From Melioribacter sp. (GTDB taxonomy: Bacteria > Bacteroidota > Ignavibacteria > Ignavibacteriales > Melioribacteraceae), in assembly GCA_026417975.1 (NCBI GenBank), contig JAOACD010000015.1, positions 62,001 through 126,000 on the forward strand: a stretch of 64,000 bases of DNA, written 5' to 3'. Each line of letters opens with the position of its first letter. Position 1 is the stretch's first letter. The notes under the pieces are model-generated. The model saw nothing but the letters and a program-made list of their open reading frames with translations. It was not told the origin of the DNA and made no database searches. Below are positions 137-15,061 of the stretch, piece after piece. The position numbers were made by a program, and so were the translations under genes.

Positions 137-1262
137 TTAGTACCGAATAAATTGCTTTAGCTGCTTTTTCAATAGCTCCAGTTTCACCCAATTTTGATTT
201 TATTAAAGAAAGTTTTTGCTTAATTTCATTATATTTTTTCTTATCTGATAAAATTTTATAACTTGTTGAATAAATATTACTGCAATTCATATCAGATTGA
301 ATTAATTCCTCAACAACTTTTTCTTCGAGTAAGATATTGACCATAGAAATATTTTCAACTTGAACAAGGAGTCGTCCTAACAAATATGTTAGATAGTTTG
401 TTGCATATACTACAATAAATGGTAGTTGAAAAATTCCAGCTTCAAGTGTAGAAGTACCAGACTTAATTATGCCAAAGTACGAATATTTAAATAAATCGTA
501 AGTGTGGCCTTTAATTATTTTATAATTTTTATAATCACTTAATTTATAGAAAATGTTTTCATTAATATTATCAGCACAAGCAACTACTATTTGAAGATTG
601 AACTCTTCAGCAAGTTTTTGAGAAGCTTTTAATGTTTCTGGAAATATTTTTTTAATCTCATGTTTTCTACTTCCCGGCAATAAAAGTAGAATTTCTTTTT
701 CTTTATTTAAGTTGAACTTTTCAAATAATTCCTCTCTAGAAAGAAAATTGTAGTTTTTGATATGTTCGATGAGAGGATGTCCTGTATAAACTACATCAAT
801 ATCATGTTCTTTATATATCTTTTCTTCAAATGGGAAAACAACAATCATTTTATCGACAAATTTTTTAATTTTTTTTATTCTATTTTTTCCCCAAGCCCAA
901 ATTTGTGGGGAAATATAGTAAATAATTTTCTTGTTAAGTTTTTTTAACTTTTTTGCCAATCGAAGATTAAAGCCGGGATAATCTACTAATATGATTGTAT
1001 TTATTTTTTCTGAGTTTACTGTATCAATTATTCTTTTTTGAACATATTTAATAAAGGGCAAATGTTTAATAATTTCAATGAAACCCAAAAAGGCCATTTC
1101 TTTTATATGAAAGATAGCATTAAATCCTACAGCAATCATTTTATCTCCACCTATTCCGCAAAATTCCAATGATGAATCAAGGTCTTTTAGTTTTTTAATT
1201 AATGCTGCTGCATGTAAATCGCCAGATGCTTCACCAGTGATGATCATTAGTTTATTTTTCAA
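126..1262 (-). CDS. lpxB: Lipid-A-disaccharide synthase LpxB
   Basis: LpxB is a GT19 glycosyltransferase. It joins UDP-2,3-diacylglucosamine to lipid X, releasing UDP, at the inner face of the cytoplasmic membrane. The 378 residues match the usual family length. The N-terminal GEASGD motif (about residues 10-15) is the family signature. A second half carries LLLPGSR and a late GTSTLE stretch that fits the UDP-sugar site. The start chosen is TTG at 1262, whose bases overlap the upstream gene's TGA (TTGA), which suggests translational coupling. An ATG five codons later at 1247 is the alternative. The other lipid A genes of this window (lpxA, lpxC, lpxD) are about 48 kb away, so the pathway is split over two operons. 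Confidence 0.95.
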   Translation of the reverse strand: MKNKLMIITGEASGDLHAAALIKKLKDLDSSLEFCGIGGDKMIAVGFNAIFHIKEMAFLGFIEIIKHLPFIKYVQKRIIDTVNSEKINTIILVDYPGFNLRLAKKLKKLNKKIIYYISPQIWAWGKNRIKKIKKFVDKMIVVFPFEEKIYKEHDIDVVYTGHPLIEHIKNYNFLSREELFEKFNLNKEKEILLLLPGSRKHEIKKIFPETLKASQKLAEEFNLQIVVACADNINENIFYKLSDYKNYKIIKGHTYDLFKYSYFGIIKSGTSTLEAGIFQLPFIVVYATNYLTYLLGRLLVQVENISMVNILLEEKVVEELIQSDMNCSNIYSTSYKILSDKKKYNEIKQKLSLIKSKLGETGAIEKAAKAIYSVLNEA

Positions 1263-1843
1263 TTTGTAACCAAGTAAAGTATTATTAGTAAAAATATTGT
1301 TATAGAAATTGCCTGAAGAGTTCTTTTTTCTGATTTTAATCCAGCTTTAAAATTAAAAGGAGGTTGTTCAATATTGTTGTTTTTATACTTTGTAAAAGTT
1401 GGGATCCATCGTGGTACAGAGTTAAAGTAGTCTTCATAATATTTCCCAAATTTATTTCTTAAAAAAGCTTCTTCTTCTTTAATAATTGTTTGATATTGCC
1501 ATATGAAAAAGATAATTGCTATGATTAATAAATATGGATATAAAGCCATCGACATTACACCAATGCCTGTGTAAATTAAAATATTGCCAAAGTATAAAGG
1601 GTTACGGACATGAGCAAAAGGCCCAGAAATTACAAGATAAGTTCCACCAACATTTCCAGTTGTTCTTGTTTCACTTCCAGCGTATGATACACCCCATAGT
1701 CTAAAAAATTCACCTATTAATACAATTATAAAACCTGTAATCATACTAATTATAGTAGCTTTCTGAAAGATTAACATTAATATTAAAAATGGTATAGGTG
1801 TATAACTTCTGTATTTAAATATTTTTTTTGCTATGTATGACAC
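1259..1843 (-). CDS. Isoprenylcysteine methyltransferase-like membrane protein
   Basis: This is a 194-residue integral membrane protein with about four to five hydrophobic segments. It contains the stretch GPFAHVRNPLYFGN, the RNPxY-type signature of the ICMT/PEMT (isoprenylcysteine or phospholipid methyltransferase) superfamily. The later EEEAFLRNKFGKYYEDY matches the conserved E-x-x-L-x-x-x-F-G-x-x-Y motif of the same fold. Such bacterial proteins are annotated as methyltransferases of unknown substrate. Genes of the lipid A group lie downstream, so a lipid substrate is possible but not shown. The start is GTG at 1843, with AAGGA just before it inside the end of the upstream gene. The stop overlaps the start of lpxB. 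Confidence 0.8.
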   Translation of the reverse strand: MSYIAKKIFKYRSYTPIPFLILMLIFQKATIISMITGFIIVLIGEFFRLWGVSYAGSETRTTGNVGGTYLVISGPFAHVRNPLYFGNILIYTGIGVMSMALYPYLLIIAIIFFIWQYQTIIKEEEAFLRNKFGKYYEDYFNSVPRWIPTFTKYKNNNIEQPPFNFKAGLKSEKRTLQAISITIFLLIILYLVTN

Positions 1844-1847
1844 TTTT

Positions 1848-2567
1848 TTATCCTTGAATGAAAATTTCTCTTCTTTTCAGTAAAGCTTGATATCTTTTTT
1901 TCAGTTTCTTTTTGTTTTTTAGTTCTTCTAACTTTATTATTATATCATTAAAATTAGAGTAAGGGAAATATGTTATTCTGTTGATTTCACAATATTTTAA
2001 TAATGATTTTTTAGCAAAAATAAAGTCACAGTATTGTGCAGGGCATATGTCCGAATAACCATCGCCTATGTAAATACTAAATTCTTCTTCACCGCTAAAA
2101 TTTAAAACATGGTTTCTTTTACAGTTAGCACATCTATTACATTCTTCGTCCGTATATGGGAAAAGAGGGATTAAATTACCATTTTCATCAAAAGTAAGTT
2201 TGTTTGAGTAAACTTCTAGTTCTGATAAATTTTCTTTTGTAAGAATTTTCTTTATATAATAATCCAAGCCATCACTTAGCACTCTTAATTCGTAATTATT
2301 TACTTTGCAATATTCTACAAATTTTTTAAAACTTTCATCAATCTCGGTTTTAAAAATAAATTCGTCAAATTCTTCTATATTCAAATTTTGTATAGTTTTA
2401 CAAAGCAAAAGCCAAGACTGACGAGCATTTATTTTTTCGTTAATCCAGTCGTTAACTATTTCTTTTGCTTTTTGTTCATCTCCGAATTTTAGAAACATCA
2501 ACTCGCCAATGTCTTCTTTTGTAATTGTGCCATCGAAATCGACGAATATTTTAAATTGTTTTTCCAT
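1848..2567 (-). CDS. HAD-superfamily phosphatase, MtnX/SerB-like
   Basis: The protein has 239 residues from the ATG at 2567, four bases after the smc stop. A longer frame reaches 2696 but only overlaps smc, and its extra residues precede the HAD motif, so the internal ATG is preferred. Motif I is VDFDGTITK, where the first Asp is the phosphorylated nucleophile. Motif II is VLSDG and motif III is YIGDGYSDICPA. A CNRCANCKRN segment in the cap region looks like the metal-type cysteine cluster seen in MtnX-like phosphatases (2-hydroxy-3-keto-5-methylthiopentenyl-1-phosphate phosphatase). No other methionine-salvage gene is in the window, so the substrate is open. It lies between smc and the methyltransferase, probably in one transcript. 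Confidence 0.8.
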   Translation of the reverse strand: MEKQFKIFVDFDGTITKEDIGELMFLKFGDEQKAKEIVNDWINEKINARQSWLLLCKTIQNLNIEEFDEFIFKTEIDESFKKFVEYCKVNNYELRVLSDGLDYYIKKILTKENLSELEVYSNKLTFDENGNLIPLFPYTDEECNRCANCKRNHVLNFSGEEEFSIYIGDGYSDICPAQYCDFIFAKKSLLKYCEINRITYFPYSNFNDIIIKLEELKNKKKLKKRYQALLKRREIFIQG

Positions 2568-2571
2568 AGGT

Positions 2572-5500
2572 TTAATCTTGATACTCTGGTATTTCTTCAA
2601 ATTTAACCCCAACCAATTTAGAAACGCCTTCTTCTTGCATTGTAACGCCATACATAGTTTCTGCTGCTTCCATTGTTCTTTTGTTATGTGTAACAATAAT
2701 AAATTGTGTATCCTTACTAAATTCTTTAAGTAATTTTGTGAATCTATCTATGTTAGCATCGTCAAGTGGGGCATCAACTTCATCAAGTATGCAAAAAGGA
2801 CTTGGCTTAACAAGATAAATTGCAAATAATAATGCTGTTGCAGTAAGTGTTTTTTCGCCACCAGAAAGCAATTCTATTGATGTAGGACGTTTTCCTTTTG
2901 GTTTAGCAACTATTTCAATTTTTGCTTCAAGAGGGTCTGCATTTTCTTCTAAGATTAAATCTGCTTCGTCTTCTGGATTGAAAAGTGTTTGAAAAATTTT
3001 TATGAAGTTTTTTCTTATTTGTTCAAAAGTGTCAAGGAACAATTTTTGAGCAGTTTCGTTGATTTCATTAATTGTTTTAATTAAATCTTTTTCTGACTCA
3101 ATTAAATCATCTCGCTGTTGATGTAGAAAATCTAATCTTTTTTTCTCTTCTTCATATTCAGAATATGCAAGTAAATTTACAGGTCCAAGATTTTTTAATT
3201 TTTCTTTTAAAGCGTGTACTTCTTTTGAAGTTTCTTCGTAGTTAAATGTTTCAAGGTCATCAAATTCTTTCAGTTCTAAATCTATATTGTAATTTTCGTT
3301 TATATGTTGTTTAATATTTTCTATTTTATAATTGTACTCATTAACTTTAATTTCAAGAGAATGGATCTTGTCGGAAACTTCTTGTCGTTTATTCCTAAGT
3401 TCTCTAAGTTGATTCTCAAATTTTGAAGCCTCTGATTTTATGGCAGCAAGTTGTTCTTCAATTTTTGATTCTTCAAGTTCAAGCAATGATTTTATCTCGG
3501 AGATTTTATTTAATTCTGTATTTAGGTTTGATAAAGAATTTTTTAAGTTCTCAGTTTCTTGCTGATTAATAATCAAATCGTTTTTTCTTTTTTCTATTCC
3601 GTTAGATGTATTTATGATTTCATTTTCATAGTGATTTATTGTATCAGAAATATTTTTTATACTACCTTTTAGTCTTTCGATTTCTAATTTTTTCTCGTTA
3701 AGTAGATTTAATGATGATGAATATACTTCTTCAATTTCTTTAAGATTTTTTTCAAACTCATCTACTTTCTTATCGATTTCTTCTCTCTTTTTATAAAGTG
3801 AATTGAGTAATTCTGTGGTTCCATTTAATTGGTTATCAAGTAAATTAGACTTCTCAGCCAACTCTTGAATTTCTTTTCTTGAGTTTTCTATTTCTTCGTC
3901 GGCTTTTTTCTTTTCATACTCAAGTTGCGAAATTTGTTTTTCAATATTTGCAATATCGTTTGCTATAAGCTTTTCTTTATCGCTTAGGTTTTTTAAGTCA
4001 ATGTTGTTTATTTCTTCTTCAATTTGATTAATTTCAGATTTTAGTTTTTCAAGTGTTAATTCAATTGTAGGATATTCGTTCTTTAGATTTTCAAGAAGTT
4101 GTTTTCTTCCAAATATTGTTTCTTCTTGTTTAGGAAGAGAACCAGCTTCAATAATTCCATTATTTTGAATAAAATCTCCTTCTAGTGTGACAAAACTAAA
4201 GTCAGGGTATTTTTTAAATAAGCTTAAGGCATTTTCAAAATTATTAACTAGTGCTACTTTAAAAAGTAATTGTTTGAAGTATAATTTCCACTGTTCAGTT
4301 GTTTCTACATAATTTACTGCCCATCCTATAAAAGATGGTTCTTTTTCTATTTTTCTAATTTTTTTTCTTAGCTTATATTGATTTATTTTATCAATTAATG
4401 ATGTTTTTTTGTATGTGCTGTTTGATACTATAAAAGATGCTTTGCCAAGTTCGTTTTCTTTAAGAAACTTTATTGCCTCTTTCAACTCGTCAAGGTTTTC
4501 TATAATGAGATTGTTTAATGCAAATTTTAGTGCAGCCTCTAGCGCAAAACGATATTTTTCTTGAGTATTACCTACATCAGCAAATATGCTTTTTTCTTTA
4601 GTTGTCCATTTTTTGTTTTCTAATAAAGCTTTAGAGCCACTAGATAAACCTTCTAGGTTGGCAATAAGTGTTTCCAAAAAATTTATTTTTTCTTTGATGC
4701 TTATAAGTACTGTTTTTTGTTCTATTTCTTTCTCTTTTAATTTATTTAATTCTTTTTCTAATCTACTTTTTTCATTTTCTCTTACAACGAATTCAGTACT
4801 TATTTCACTTAATTTCTTTTCTGCTTCTATTTTTTCGTTTGATAGCTCTTCTATATAACCAACAGTTTTCGCTATTCTAGTTGTTATATTCAGAATTTTT
4901 TGATTTAGTTTTTCAATTCTTTCATTATAATCTGAAATTTCTTTTTTCAATGTAGCTAAAAGATTTTCTTTAGCTGAAATTTCTTTAATAAGTGAGTATC
5001 TTTCTTCATTAATAGCTTTTAACTGTATTCTTTTTTCTTCTAGCAAATTTCTTTTTTCTGATACAAGTTTTTCATCTTTATTAGTTTCTAAGCTCTTATC
5101 ATTTAGAAGATTGTTTAGTTTATCGAGTTCTTTTTCAGCTTCCTCTTTTAAACTTGTAACTTTTTTAATATTCTCTTGGAATTCTTCAATTTCTTTCTCT
5201 ATTCTGTTGTAATTGTTAAATAGTGAATTTAGCTTTTCTTCTGTGACAGAAAATTGTTTTTGTAATTGATAAAGTTTATTTGAATTGTCTGCTATTTCAA
5301 GCCTTTTTTTCTGTAGCTCAGCTTCAATAGAATTAATATTATTGCGGTAAGTAATAAGTTCGTCTTCAATTGTTCTTATTTGTTTGTCAATCTCTTCTTT
5401 TTGTAAGCTAAGTTCCGCAATTTCTTTTAAGAATATTTCTTTTTCTTTATTGTAGAGAGAATATTCTCTTTCAGCAAGATTAATCTCTTTATCTTTTAGA

Positions 5501-11100: not shown

Positions 11101-11114
11101 TTAAGTATACTTAA
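11101..11114. promoter_or_regulatory. Palindrome, candidate DtxR-family operator
   Basis: TTAAGTATACTTAA is a perfect 14-bp palindrome ending 25 bases before the first DtxR-type gene. It resembles the TTAGG/CCTAA half-sites of metal-dependent DtxR/MntR regulators in layout but is more AT-rich. Just upstream, 9-bp AT-only arms (11072-11080 and 11094-11102) form a second inverted repeat. Autoregulation of the iron operon is inferred from position. Confidence 0.5.
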
Positions 11115-11813: not shown

Positions 11814-12803
11814 ATGAGTACCATAATAATTATTTTATCTCTTTTAATTGTCTTTATTTTTTTTCTTTATAAAAACAAAGCTTTTTATTTGATGAAAAAA
11901 AACGTTAAAGAGAAAGAAAAAATAGAGGATTCACTTAAATACCTATATGATTGTGAATATAATCAGAGACCATGTACAATAAAAAGCTTAAGTAAAAAAT
12001 TATCAATTAGCTTTATCGAAACTACACAACTTATAAATAAGCTTGTAGAGCTAGGGTTGGTTACTGAAAAAAGCGATGAATTATTTTTAACAGCCGAAGG
12101 AAGACAAAATGCACTTCAAATTATTCGAATACATCGCTTACTTGAAAAATACTTTGCAGAAAATACAAGCATTGTTGAATCAAGATGGCATAAGTTAGCT
12201 GAAATAAAGGAACATCAATTAAATGTTGAAGAGGCTAATCAAATAGCATCTAATCTTGGTAATCCATTGATAGATCCTCATGGGGATCCAATTCCAAGTG
12301 TAGATGGAACTATATTATTAGAAAATACAATTAAACTTACAGAATTAAATGAAGGTTTAACAGCCGAAATAATTCATATTGAAGATGAGCCAGAAGAAAT
12401 ATTTTCTTTAATTAATTCATTAAAACTTTATCCAGGTATGCAATTAAAAGTCAAAAGTATAGATAAAGAAAATGTTTTAATTGAAATAGAGGGAAGAATA
12501 ATTTCTTTGAAAAAAGATGTTGCTGATAATATAAATGTTAAGGAAATTAAAAATGAGATTTTAATTAAAAATTTTAATAGAACTCTTTCATCGCTCAAAG
12601 CTGGGGAAAGTGCTATTGTTGTTGGATTATCTAAAGCATTAAGAGGACAACAGAGAAGAAGATTGCTTGATTTAGGAATTGTACCTGGTACGAAAATTAA
12701 AGCAGTTCTTGAAAGTATAGGTAAAGACCCAGTTGCATATGAAGTTAGAGGAACTTTGATAGCCCTTCGCAAAAATCAATCTGATTATATTTTTATTCAA
12801 TAA
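11814..12803 (+). CDS. Membrane-anchored DtxR-like protein fused to FeoA
   Basis: The 329-residue protein opens with a single hydrophobic helix (about residues 3-18, IIIILSLLIVFIFFLY) followed by Lys-rich sequence. This suggests an N-terminal anchor with the rest in the cytoplasm. A DtxR-like winged helix (about 38-80, KSLSKKLSISFIETTQLINK) and a DtxR metal-domain segment with LRIHRLL-type and NPLIDPHGDPIP motifs follow. The last 75 residues are a FeoA/SH3 domain (SLKAGESAIVVGL, RRRLLDLGIVPGT). FeoA normally is a small separate partner of FeoB. Lying between a soluble DtxR and FeoB-N, the protein may link metal sensing to the transporter at the membrane rather than act as an ordinary repressor. 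That is inference. Confidence 0.8.
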   Translation: MSTIIIILSLLIVFIFFLYKNKAFYLMKKNVKEKEKIEDSLKYLYDCEYNQRPCTIKSLSKKLSISFIETTQLINKLVELGLVTEKSDELFLTAEGRQNALQIIRIHRLLEKYFAENTSIVESRWHKLAEIKEHQLNVEEANQIASNLGNPLIDPHGDPIPSVDGTILLENTIKLTELNEGLTAEIIHIEDEPEEIFSLINSLKLYPGMQLKVKSIDKENVLIEIEGRIISLKKDVADNINVKEIKNEILIKNFNRTLSSLKAGESAIVVGLSKALRGQQRRRLLDLGIVPGTKIKAVLESIGKDPVAYEVRGTLIALRKNQSDYIFIQ

Positions 12804-12820
12804 TATGGATTGAGGATACT

Positions 12821-13615
12821 ATGCAAGAAAAAATTATTGAAAAGTGTGCTAATTGCCCTGCACATAATCTTAATCATCTTATTAGACTAGGCATTGATAT
12901 GACAGACTATGATTATGTTATAGCATTAGCAGGGAATCCAAATACAGGCAAAAGTACTGTATTTAATAACTTAACTGGTTTGAAACAACATACCGGAAAT
13001 TGGCCAGGCAAAACTGTAAGTAGAGCAGAAGGTGGTTTTATTTACGCAAACAAAAGATTTAAAGTTGTTGATTTGCCGGGAACATATTCTTTGCTTTCAA
13101 CAAGTACAGATGAGGAAATAGCTAGAGATTTCATATTATTTGGACAGCCTGATGTAACTGTTATTGTTGTAGATTCTACAAGGTTAGAAAGAAACCTTAA
13201 TCTCGTGCTACAAGTTCTTGAGATAACCGATAGGGCTGTTTTATGTCTTAATTTAATAGATGAAGCAGAGAGGCATCAAATTCAAATTGATGATAAATTA
13301 TTATCGAAAAAATTGGGTATCCCAGTTATTCCTGCAGCAGCGAGAGAGAAAAAAGGAATGAAAGAATTGCTCCAGAGTATTTTTGAAGTGGCAACAGGGC
13401 AATATATATGTAAACCATATAGAATTAGTAATGATTTTAAAGAACTTACATTTGCTGTAGATGAATTAGAAGCACAGATAAAAAAATGTTTTCCAAATTT
13501 GAATAATGCTAGATGGATAGCATTTAGATTGCTTGAAGGCGACCAAAAAATAATAGATGCTGTACGAAGCGGAGAAATTGGAAAAATAAAATTACAAGAA
13601 GAAATTCTAGAATAA
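12821..13615 (+). CDS. feoB: FeoB N-terminal GTPase domain protein
   Basis: The 264-residue protein is the cytosolic G-domain of the ferrous iron transporter FeoB, encoded as its own gene. It shows G1 GNPNTGKST, the G3 motif DLPGTYSL, and NLID as the G4 NxxD. A guanine-nucleotide-dissociation-inhibitor-like helical part follows at the C-terminus. Near the N-terminus a CANCPAH segment adds a small Cys/His cluster not needed for GTP binding. The frame ends at a TAA (13613-13615). Only six sense codons separate this stop from the ATG of the membrane part in the same frame. It follows the DtxR-FeoA gene by 17 bases. Confidence 0.9.
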   Translation: MQEKIIEKCANCPAHNLNHLIRLGIDMTDYDYVIALAGNPNTGKSTVFNNLTGLKQHTGNWPGKTVSRAEGGFIYANKRFKVVDLPGTYSLLSTSTDEEIARDFILFGQPDVTVIVVDSTRLERNLNLVLQVLEITDRAVLCLNLIDEAERHQIQIDDKLLSKKLGIPVIPAAAREKKGMKELLQSIFEVATGQYICKPYRISNDFKELTFAVDELEAQIKKCFPNLNNARWIAFRLLEGDQKIIDAVRSGEIGKIKLQEEILE

Positions 13616-13633
13616 TTTGTTAAAGGGAAGCAG

Positions 13634-15061
13634 ATGGAAAAGGAACTAAAACAGAGAGAATTACTATTAGAAGTAGCTAATAAGTTGAGGTGGAAAATTG
13701 GAGAAAATGTTCATGATTTAATTCTTGAATCTATATACAAGCATGCAGAAGAGATAGCAAGTGCTGTTACTAAGAGAAAAGTAGGTGTGCAAAAATTTGA
13801 TTTTGATAGTTTCATAGATAGAATTGTTACAAACAAATGGACAGGTTTTCCTATTATGTTTTTACTTTTGGCTATTGTTTTTTGGTTAACGATTGTAGGG
13901 GCAAACTATCCTTCAAGTGCTTTGTCTTTTTTACTTGTTGATACAATACACCCATTATTAAGAAAAGTTGCAGAATACTTTTATTTCCCATGGTGGTTGA
14001 AAGGTATTTTAATTGATGGGGCATATTTATCAATGGCTTGGGTTATAAGTGTTATGCTTCCTCCAATGGCTATTTTTTTTCCACTATTTACATTCTTAGA
14101 AGATTTTGGATATTTGCCACGCGTTGCATTTAACATGGATGCAATTTATAAAAAGGTAGGGGCTCATGGCAAACAAGCATTAACTATGAGTATGGGTTTT
14201 GGATGTAACGCGGCAGGTGTTATTGCTGCAAGGATAATCGATAGTCCACGAGAAAGATTAATAGCTATTATTACAAACAATTTTTCTTTGTGCAATGGTA
14301 GATGGCCTACACAAATTTTGATTTCAACTATTTTTATAGGAAGTTTAGTGCCTTCGTATCTTGCAGGTTTGATTTCTGCTGGTGTTGTTGTAGGTGTAGC
14401 TATATTAGGCGTTTTATTTAGCCTAATTGTTTCATGGTTTTTATCAAGAACATTATTAAAAGGTGAGCCCTCAGCATTTAGTCTTGAATTACCTCCTTAT
14501 AGGCCACCTAAAATTTTACAAATACTTTATACTTCTTTAATTGATAGGACTTTATTAGTTTTATGGCGAGCAGTTGTTTTTGCATTTCCAGCTGGTGCAG
14601 TAATATGGCTTGTGGCAAATGTCAATATAAATAATTTAAGTATAGCCGAGCATTTTATAAGATGGATTAATCCTTCAGCGGTATTCATTGGATTAAATGG
14701 AGTTATAATTCTTGCCTATATTATTGCAATACCTGCAAATGAAATAGTTATACCAACTATTTTAATGCTTACAGTTTTAACAACAAAACTAACTGGATTT
14801 GGTGCTGGTGCTGGGGTAATGTTTGAACTTGAAAATATTTCTGATATTGAATATTTGTTGAAAGCTGGAGGATGGACTACATTAACAGGCATAAACTTAA
14901 TGCTTTTTAGTTTACTTCATAATCCTTGTTCAACTACTATATTTACGATATATAAAGAAACAAAAAGTTTTAAATGGACAGCTATTGCAACTTTTCTACC
15001 AATAGTGTTAGGTATTTTAGTTTGTTTCTTAGTTACAAGATTATGGTACATTTTATTTTGA
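13634..15061 (+). CDS. feoB: FeoB C-terminal membrane permease part
   Basis: This is the 475-residue membrane portion of a ferrous iron transporter, with two Gate-type (nucleoside recognition) segments and about ten hydrophobic helices. [16 protein letters not shown] corresponds to the FeoB GFGCNVPAI motif but with NAAG in place of NVPA. The second half has [15 protein letters not shown], matching the conserved Cys segment of the second Gate domain. The ATG at 13634 is preceded by AAAGGGA with good spacing, so independent translation is plausible. The frame is the same as the GTPase gene upstream, with only one stop between. The operon ends here. The convergent ppk1 gene ends 42 bases on. Confidence 0.9.

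Follow-up and report, generated by a model that had tools for sequence, protein, structure and literature searches.

What does a DtxR-like protein do when it begins with a hydrophobic helix, ends in FeoA sequence and is encoded directly before feoB? The question is raised by a 329-aa protein encoded at 11814-12803 of a 64,000-nucleotide stretch of a Melioribacter sp. genome (assembly GCA_026417975.1, contig JAOACD010000015.1, positions 62,001 to 126,000), which is called the window below. A preliminary description had read the protein as an N-terminal membrane helix, a DtxR-like winged helix and metal domain and a C-terminal FeoA domain, and had proposed two possible roles: metal-sensing control of transport from the cytoplasm, or continued DNA binding from the membrane. 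We computed directly the predicted fold, the anchor, the conservation of the metal ligands, the loss of the DNA surface, the gene order and an upstream palindrome. The protein is labelled T here, and the ordinary DtxR-type protein encoded upstream of it is labelled D.

The operon and the domains of T

D, T and the GTPase and membrane parts of FeoB are encoded in this tight order on the + strand, with the T start two bases past the D stop codon; the gene after FeoB-C lies on the opposite strand. The operon features, in window coordinates, are as follows.

11101-11114, no strand assigned: palindrome TTAAGTATACTTAA, a DtxR-type putative operator, 26 bases before the D start codon
11140-11811, + strand: D, an ordinary DtxR/MntR-type regulator with an intact HTH, 223 aa
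11814-12803, + strand: T, a membrane-anchored DtxR-like predicted metal sensor with two FeoA domains, 329 aa (ORF list, Pfam, model)
12821-13615, + strand: FeoB-N, the GTPase part of FeoB, 264 aa (Pfam FeoB_N, 206 bits), with an N-terminal CxxC leader at 12845-12856
13634-15061, + strand: FeoB-C, the membrane part of FeoB, 475 aa (Pfam Gate, 85.5 bits, and FeoB_C, 52.7 bits)

Pfam recognised D by Fe_dep_repress (51.3 bits), Fe_dep_repr_C (107.9 bits) and FeoA/SH3 (49.2 bits) matches. The ORF of T opens with ATG, has no alternative in-frame start further upstream, and encodes the following parts.

11814-11873, + strand: membrane helix, residues 1-20, the start of a continuous helix over residues 2-49 (hydropathy, model secondary structure, conservation)
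11913-12089, + strand: winged helix (residues 34-92) whose recognition helix and wing lack conservation; ligand position D39 is encoded at 11928-11930
12090-12296, + strand: DtxR metal-binding/dimerisation domain, residues 93-161, holding H107, E111, H126, E130, E133, H134, D154 and H156 (Pfam PF02742, ligand columns)
12333-12542, + strand: first FeoA/SH3 domain, in which H188 and D191 are invariant and E192 is nearly so
12582-12800, + strand: second FeoA domain, basic, with invariant R281, R283, D286 and R319

The C-terminal FeoA domain of the preliminary description is present, but it is one of two: the Pfam FeoA match (90.6 bits) is split over two stretches, and a six-frame FeoA search placed FeoA-type domains at both 12333-12542 and 12582-12800. 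The second carries a mean net charge of +4.5 across the family. Fe_dep_repr_C (PF02742) matched residues 93-161 with 63.8 bits; the DtxR HTH model reached only 17.3 bits against a cut-off of 26. Across the family, PF02742 and PF04023 were each found in 105 of 105 T proteins. No FeoC model appeared among the Pfam and NCBIfam profile matches.

An AlphaFold model of T built with 105 family members had a mean pLDDT of 93.9 and a pTM of 0.85. In it a single helix spans residues 2-49, so that the membrane segment runs on into the first helix of the winged helix, which bears D39. The top PDB match of residues 36-245 was 5zr6_B (Z 22.5, rmsd 1.6 over 206 residues), the IdeR-DNA complex 1u8r_A matched with Z 20.1 (rmsd 4.3 over 210 residues), and Foldseek agreed with the Mn/Fe repressor match. 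As modelled, T has the winged helix-turn-helix and metal/dimerisation domain of the DtxR/MntR fold, as the preliminary description had it. Fold likeness alone says nothing of the function of T. We treat T as a DtxR-fold relative and do not file it as a DtxR repressor, because the DNA-recognition helix and wing of such a repressor are not kept (see below); automatic pipelines probably annotate these genes as transcription factors.

Distribution, membrane anchor and phylogeny of T

A search for the same architecture in related feo loci, suggested in the preliminary description, returned at least 122 T loci from at least 11 named phyla. These totals are lower bounds, one of the scans having contributed its best 80 matches, and at least four contigs are counted twice (L016/L052, L021/L053, L042/L058 and L034/L100, kept in the counts of 117, 120 and 122). 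Three loci in which a full T is absent (L103, L123 and L128) were dropped. A phylum is given for 75 of the 77 named-record loci: Bacteroidota and Chloroflexota contribute at least 20 each, Ignavibacteriota, Gemmatimonadota and Acidobacteriota at least 8 each, Verrucomicrobiota at least 4, Calditrichota and Planctomycetota at least 2 each, and Balneolota, Myxococcota and Chlorobiota at least one each, although many records are single metagenome bins, some of which may be misplaced through binning errors. The window's own family and order contain many full-length orthologues, and the isolates Maribacter, Tamlana and Arenibacter are among the matches listed. With orthologues across many genomes, T is not the lone odd gene of one genome. 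The preliminary description had missed the putative operator before D, the wide distribution of T and its second FeoA domain.

Residues 1-19 of T have a Kyte-Doolittle mean of 2.79 (19-residue window) and are followed by K/R-rich sequence; the membrane-helix call is based on hydropathy, charge pattern and conservation. The helix is found in 43 of the 45 orthologues L005-L049, the two exceptions being L044, which lies at a contig edge, and L041, whose frame is broken. In the wider set an N-terminal segment scoring at least 1.6 is present in 112 of 117 T proteins, compared with 1 of 67 neighbouring D proteins, once broken, contig-edge and mis-started frames (L041, L044, L074, L125 and L080) had been left out of the helix count and the joint alignment. 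L120 scores 1.51, just under this threshold, and four of the 117 (L093, L098, L116 and L118, starts and frames inspected) have no membrane helix, so the anchor is not essential. These helix-less members nest inside T on the tree, where the trait needs three changes, and the anchor therefore reads as ancestral. A chance hydrophobic start or a mis-called start codon is ruled out by conservation. A signal peptide with a periplasmic T was also rejected, the positive residues coming after the hydrophobic helix and not before it, a pattern that predicts an N-out, C-in orientation. The preliminary description would have fallen had the first helix not been a membrane segment or had the domain lacked the DtxR fold; neither outcome was observed.

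On a tree made by a quick method, with SH-aLRT support and no bootstrap, T (76 rows) and D (30 rows) are split by one branch (SH-aLRT 100), and the split holds with the second FeoA domain and the recognition-helix and wing columns removed. Long branches were seen for L034, L098 and L118 in the full tree and for L034 and L118 in the reduced-column tree. A recent local duplication of D as the origin of T is not supported, since the two lie on opposite sides of this branch. The nearest named relative of the window T belongs to Melioribacteraceae.

Metal ligands, DNA-contacting surface and operator

The D proteins encoded at the same loci served as the control for T, and 61 loci with both genes were compared (repeat loci L052, L053 and L100 were left out of this paired test and of the operator count below). 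Fifteen recognition-helix and wing columns, chosen after the per-column table had been seen and taken by us to be DNA-contacting from the general position of these elements in winged helices, carried 1.44 bits in T vs 3.13 bits in D. The corresponding values for the remaining 43 winged-helix columns were 2.49 vs 2.33 bits, for the metal domain 2.98 vs 2.95 bits, and for ten metal-ligand columns 4.20 vs 4.09 bits. The drop in conservation is confined to the DNA-contacting stretch (p = 4.8e-7 vs the rest of the winged helix, an indicative value given the non-independence of columns and sequences). The winged helix has a net charge of -3.74 in T and +1.85 in D, and at E<=0.01 Pfam detects an HTH in 17 of 105 T proteins vs 61 of 61 D proteins. 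Scores against an HMM of the D HTH do not overlap (66.2 to 101.7 for D and -0.8 to 33.0 for T, repeat loci L052, L053, L058 and L100 left out), the scores of D being favoured by its members having built the HMM.

Twelve ligand positions were followed through the 105 T proteins. Eight are invariant (H107, E111, H126, E133, H134, D154, H188 and D191), and the others are kept in 81-98%: D39 in 101, H156 in 103, E192 in 100 and E130 in 85, the last being the variable position (85 E, 9 D, 4 Q, 3 H, 2 C and 2 N). By these comparisons T retains its predicted metal-ligand set and has apparently lost a repressor-type DNA surface; it no longer looks able to bind DNA.

The palindrome TTAAGTATACTTAA before D is the sole match in the window, where 0.42 would be expected by chance. 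A DtxR-type palindrome was found near the D start in 51 of 60 D loci examined, a count that is not blind, the operator patterns having been written after 17 upstream regions had been viewed, and for which the background count is the control: TTAAGnnnnCTTAA lies near the D start in 30 of the 60 loci and occurs 0 times in 378,133 bases elsewhere in these loci. None of the 122 loci has it within 120 bases upstream of T. Its position at the D start suggests that transcription of the operon is regulated by D. A scan of the window's own genome gave 7 operator sites vs 9 in the reversed control, so no own-genome regulon is claimed, and promoter-like sites were at chance level (22 vs 23.5).

D lies within 250 bases upstream of T in 64 of the 122 loci, and a further 54 have at least 150 bases upstream without an adjacent D; the remaining four have too little upstream sequence. 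A DtxR-type palindrome occurs upstream of T in 12 of these 54 (0.30 expected; L061, L062, L073, L075-L077, L101, L107, L111, L113, L117 and L119), and a DNA role for T is for this reason conceivable at D-less loci. The T proteins at the 12 loci are less acidic (mean -0.42) but score 0.8 to 18.1 against the D-HTH HMM and so have no HTH resembling that of D; the likeliest reader of their palindromes is an unlinked DtxR protein. That T might generally be a membrane-tethered transcription factor, controlling the feo operon by binding DNA from the membrane or after proteolytic release, is in our judgement improbable. The complete DtxR fold of the model and the 12 palindromes would agree with it, as would PgMntR, a protein with the same domains that binds DNA and for which no anchor is reported in the available text of PMC4805248. 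Yet the recognition helix and wing of T lack both conservation and positive charge, its HTH scores are 33 or lower against 66 or higher for D, the 12 palindrome loci included, and where D is present it is D that the palindrome precedes.

Pairing with FeoB, proposed role and known systems

The preliminary description placed T inside the feo operon next to FeoB, and this arrangement proved general: feoB directly follows T in 121 of 122 loci, 120 of them found by script and one (L061) in which the FeoB frame overlaps T. In the remaining locus (L046) the contig ends 99 bases downstream of T. No stand-alone FeoA frame was found in 75 of the 77 named-record loci, so T is the only FeoA at hand. The two exceptions are L104, with a minus-strand FeoA beside a second FeoB, and L083, with a separate feo-like operon; the latter (396-3750 of that locus, about 2 kb upstream of the T operon) comprises a DtxR, a FeoA-like frame and weakly matching FeoB-N and FeoB-C.

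The FeoB of the window (12821-15061) is made as two proteins, cut inside the FeoB_Cyto helical domain, positions 5-48 of which match FeoB-N and positions 49-90 match FeoB-C weakly (E 0.069). A separate FeoB N-terminal frame was seen in 97 of 120 T loci, a few of them cut by contig ends, and a single FeoB frame in 23 of 120. A CxxC leader, often CxxCPxHN, precedes the FeoB P-loop in 113 of 120 and is a possible Fe or Fe-S site. The T-FeoB system is not the only one of its genome, as another contig (C2, about 89467-91324) encodes a further, canonical pair made up of a 77-aa FeoA frame and a FeoB of about 675 aa; that pair has neither a DtxR-like partner nor a CxxC leader.

Of the two options in the preliminary description, the metal-sensing cytoplasmic regulator of transport is favoured over DNA binding from the membrane, because T retains the metal ligands without a conserved DNA-contacting stretch, and because its gene stays beside feoB. 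Gene order strongly suggests that T is a subunit of FeoB, and we infer that T also places FeoB under metal control. Our reading, which we hold to be fairly probable, is that T serves this FeoB as its FeoA subunit and adjusts transport through a cytosolic metal sensor of its own, with transcriptional control left to D. T would derive from a DtxR-type metalloregulator; its membrane helix would keep it beside FeoB with all other parts cytoplasmic, and its C-terminal FeoA domain would dock onto the GTPase part. The DtxR core would dimerise, and its metal sites, to which the winged helix, the metal domain and the first FeoA/SH3 domain each contribute, would fill at high cytosolic Fe2+ (or Mn2+). 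Because the membrane helix runs on into a helix bearing one ligand and the same core carries the second FeoA domain, metal binding would move FeoA relative to FeoB and affect either the GTPase or the pore, most probably so as to reduce uptake. In the part of PMC8980893 available, the FeoA-NFeoB contact of the B. fragilis fusion is nucleotide-dependent and slows GTP hydrolysis; were the second FeoA domain of T to act likewise, a metal-driven shift of the DtxR core would reposition FeoA on FeoB-N. D would control transcription separately, via the palindrome ahead of the operon.

FeoC is a winged helix that contacts NFeoB, and the adjacency of T and feoB would fit equally well with T as a scaffold or stability factor of FeoB, its DtxR core being a dimerising platform or FeoC-like winged helix and any bound metal structural. 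FeoA of V. cholerae is needed for FeoB pore assembly (PMC8749426), and FeoB is shielded by FeoC from FtsH proteolysis (PMC10710835). A full sensor site would be needless in such a factor, yet the twelve ligand positions of T are conserved as in D (4.20 vs 4.09 bits), and we consider a scaffold unlikely.

FeoB families are mostly Fe2+ importers, and MntR-like sites do not settle specificity. The mechanism proposed for T could nevertheless operate with Mn2+ as substrate and signal in place of Fe2+, a tentative variant to which we give less than an even chance and which overlaps our reading of T and is not counted against it. The top structural match, 5zr6_B, is a Mn repressor, and the genome has a second, canonical FeoAB. 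D39/E130/E133/H134 of T resemble D8/E99/E102/H103 of B. subtilis MntR as quoted in PMC4805248, in which PgMntR is encoded with the Mn transporter FB2 but also binds two Fe2+.

If T is a sensor of this kind, the importer could read the cell's metal level directly, and two DtxR-type proteins would respond to one metal, each at its own level. What FeoA and FeoC do has been called unclear (PMC8749426, in the text available). Fusion of FeoA to a complete predicted metal sensor leads to the prediction that FeoA is a control handle on the FeoB GTPase through which cytosolic metal acts. It would also be a case of a repressor fold taken over for a transporter, with its gene kept next to feoB across eleven named phyla. 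We give even odds to a broader proposal covering at least 11 phyla: in a single conversion, a transcriptional metalloregulator became a membrane component of FeoB, detecting in the cytosol the metal that has been imported and gating the transporter post-translationally, with transcription remaining under D. Since isolates of Maribacter, Tamlana and Arenibacter carry T, these proposals are testable in culture. Direct metal feedback is listed for several other metal transporters in PMC10710835; for FeoB the available part of that source lists FeoC-linked proteolysis and names no metal-sensing FeoB subunit.

The DtxR core with twin FeoA domains is known already from the soluble, DNA-binding PgMntR of Porphyromonas gingivalis (PMC4805248, from which the following is drawn as far as its text was available). 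Like T, PgMntR has a DtxR winged helix-turn-helix, a metal/dimerisation domain and two C-terminal FeoA domains, the second of them basic (pI 11.36, compared with the mean charge of +4.5 in T), and shares an operon with a FeoB-type transporter. Its metal ligands, among them an H..D-E group of FeoA domain one, are comparable to those of T, whose ligands were matched to the listed PgMntR positions by spacing and not by alignment; Cys108 of PgMntR corresponds to a position that is mostly Glu (E130) in T. PgMntR binds Mn2+ and Fe2+. Unlike T, it is a highly soluble recombinant protein for which no membrane segment is mentioned, and it binds promoter DNA. T does not appear to be a soluble DNA binder of this type, given its membrane helix (112/117) and its apparently lost DNA surface. 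A search of 98 genomes for PgMntR relatives returned seven DtxR proteins, and the profile used detected no second FeoA domain in them.

Among the titles and abstract openings of the open-access journal papers surveyed, we recognised no description of a membrane-anchored DtxR-FeoA protein, and the available text of PMC8749426 does not contain the term 'DtxR'. Nor did we find described there a membrane anchor of this kind, a DNA surface apparently lost while the metal sites persist, a constant association with feoB or so wide a distribution. The IdeR/DtxR/MntR repressors (PDB 5zr6, 1u8r) share with T the fold over residues 36-245 and the metal-ligand layout, but they are soluble and their recognition helix and wing are basic, whereas T has a membrane helix, a DNA surface that appears lost and an extra FeoA domain. 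FeoC is largely gammaproteobacterial. It is a small accessory regulator of FeoB (PMC8749426, PMC10710835), as T is proposed to be, but it has neither a DtxR metal domain nor a FeoA domain. FeoA and the FeoAB fusions resemble T in having an SH3-type FeoA domain beside or fused with FeoB, and differ from it, in the part of PMC8980893 available, in that their FeoA lacks a metal sensor and a membrane helix of its own and, in the fusions, is joined to FeoB instead of a DtxR core. T supplies the sole FeoA of its operon and is in this respect comparable to the FeoA of FeoAB systems.
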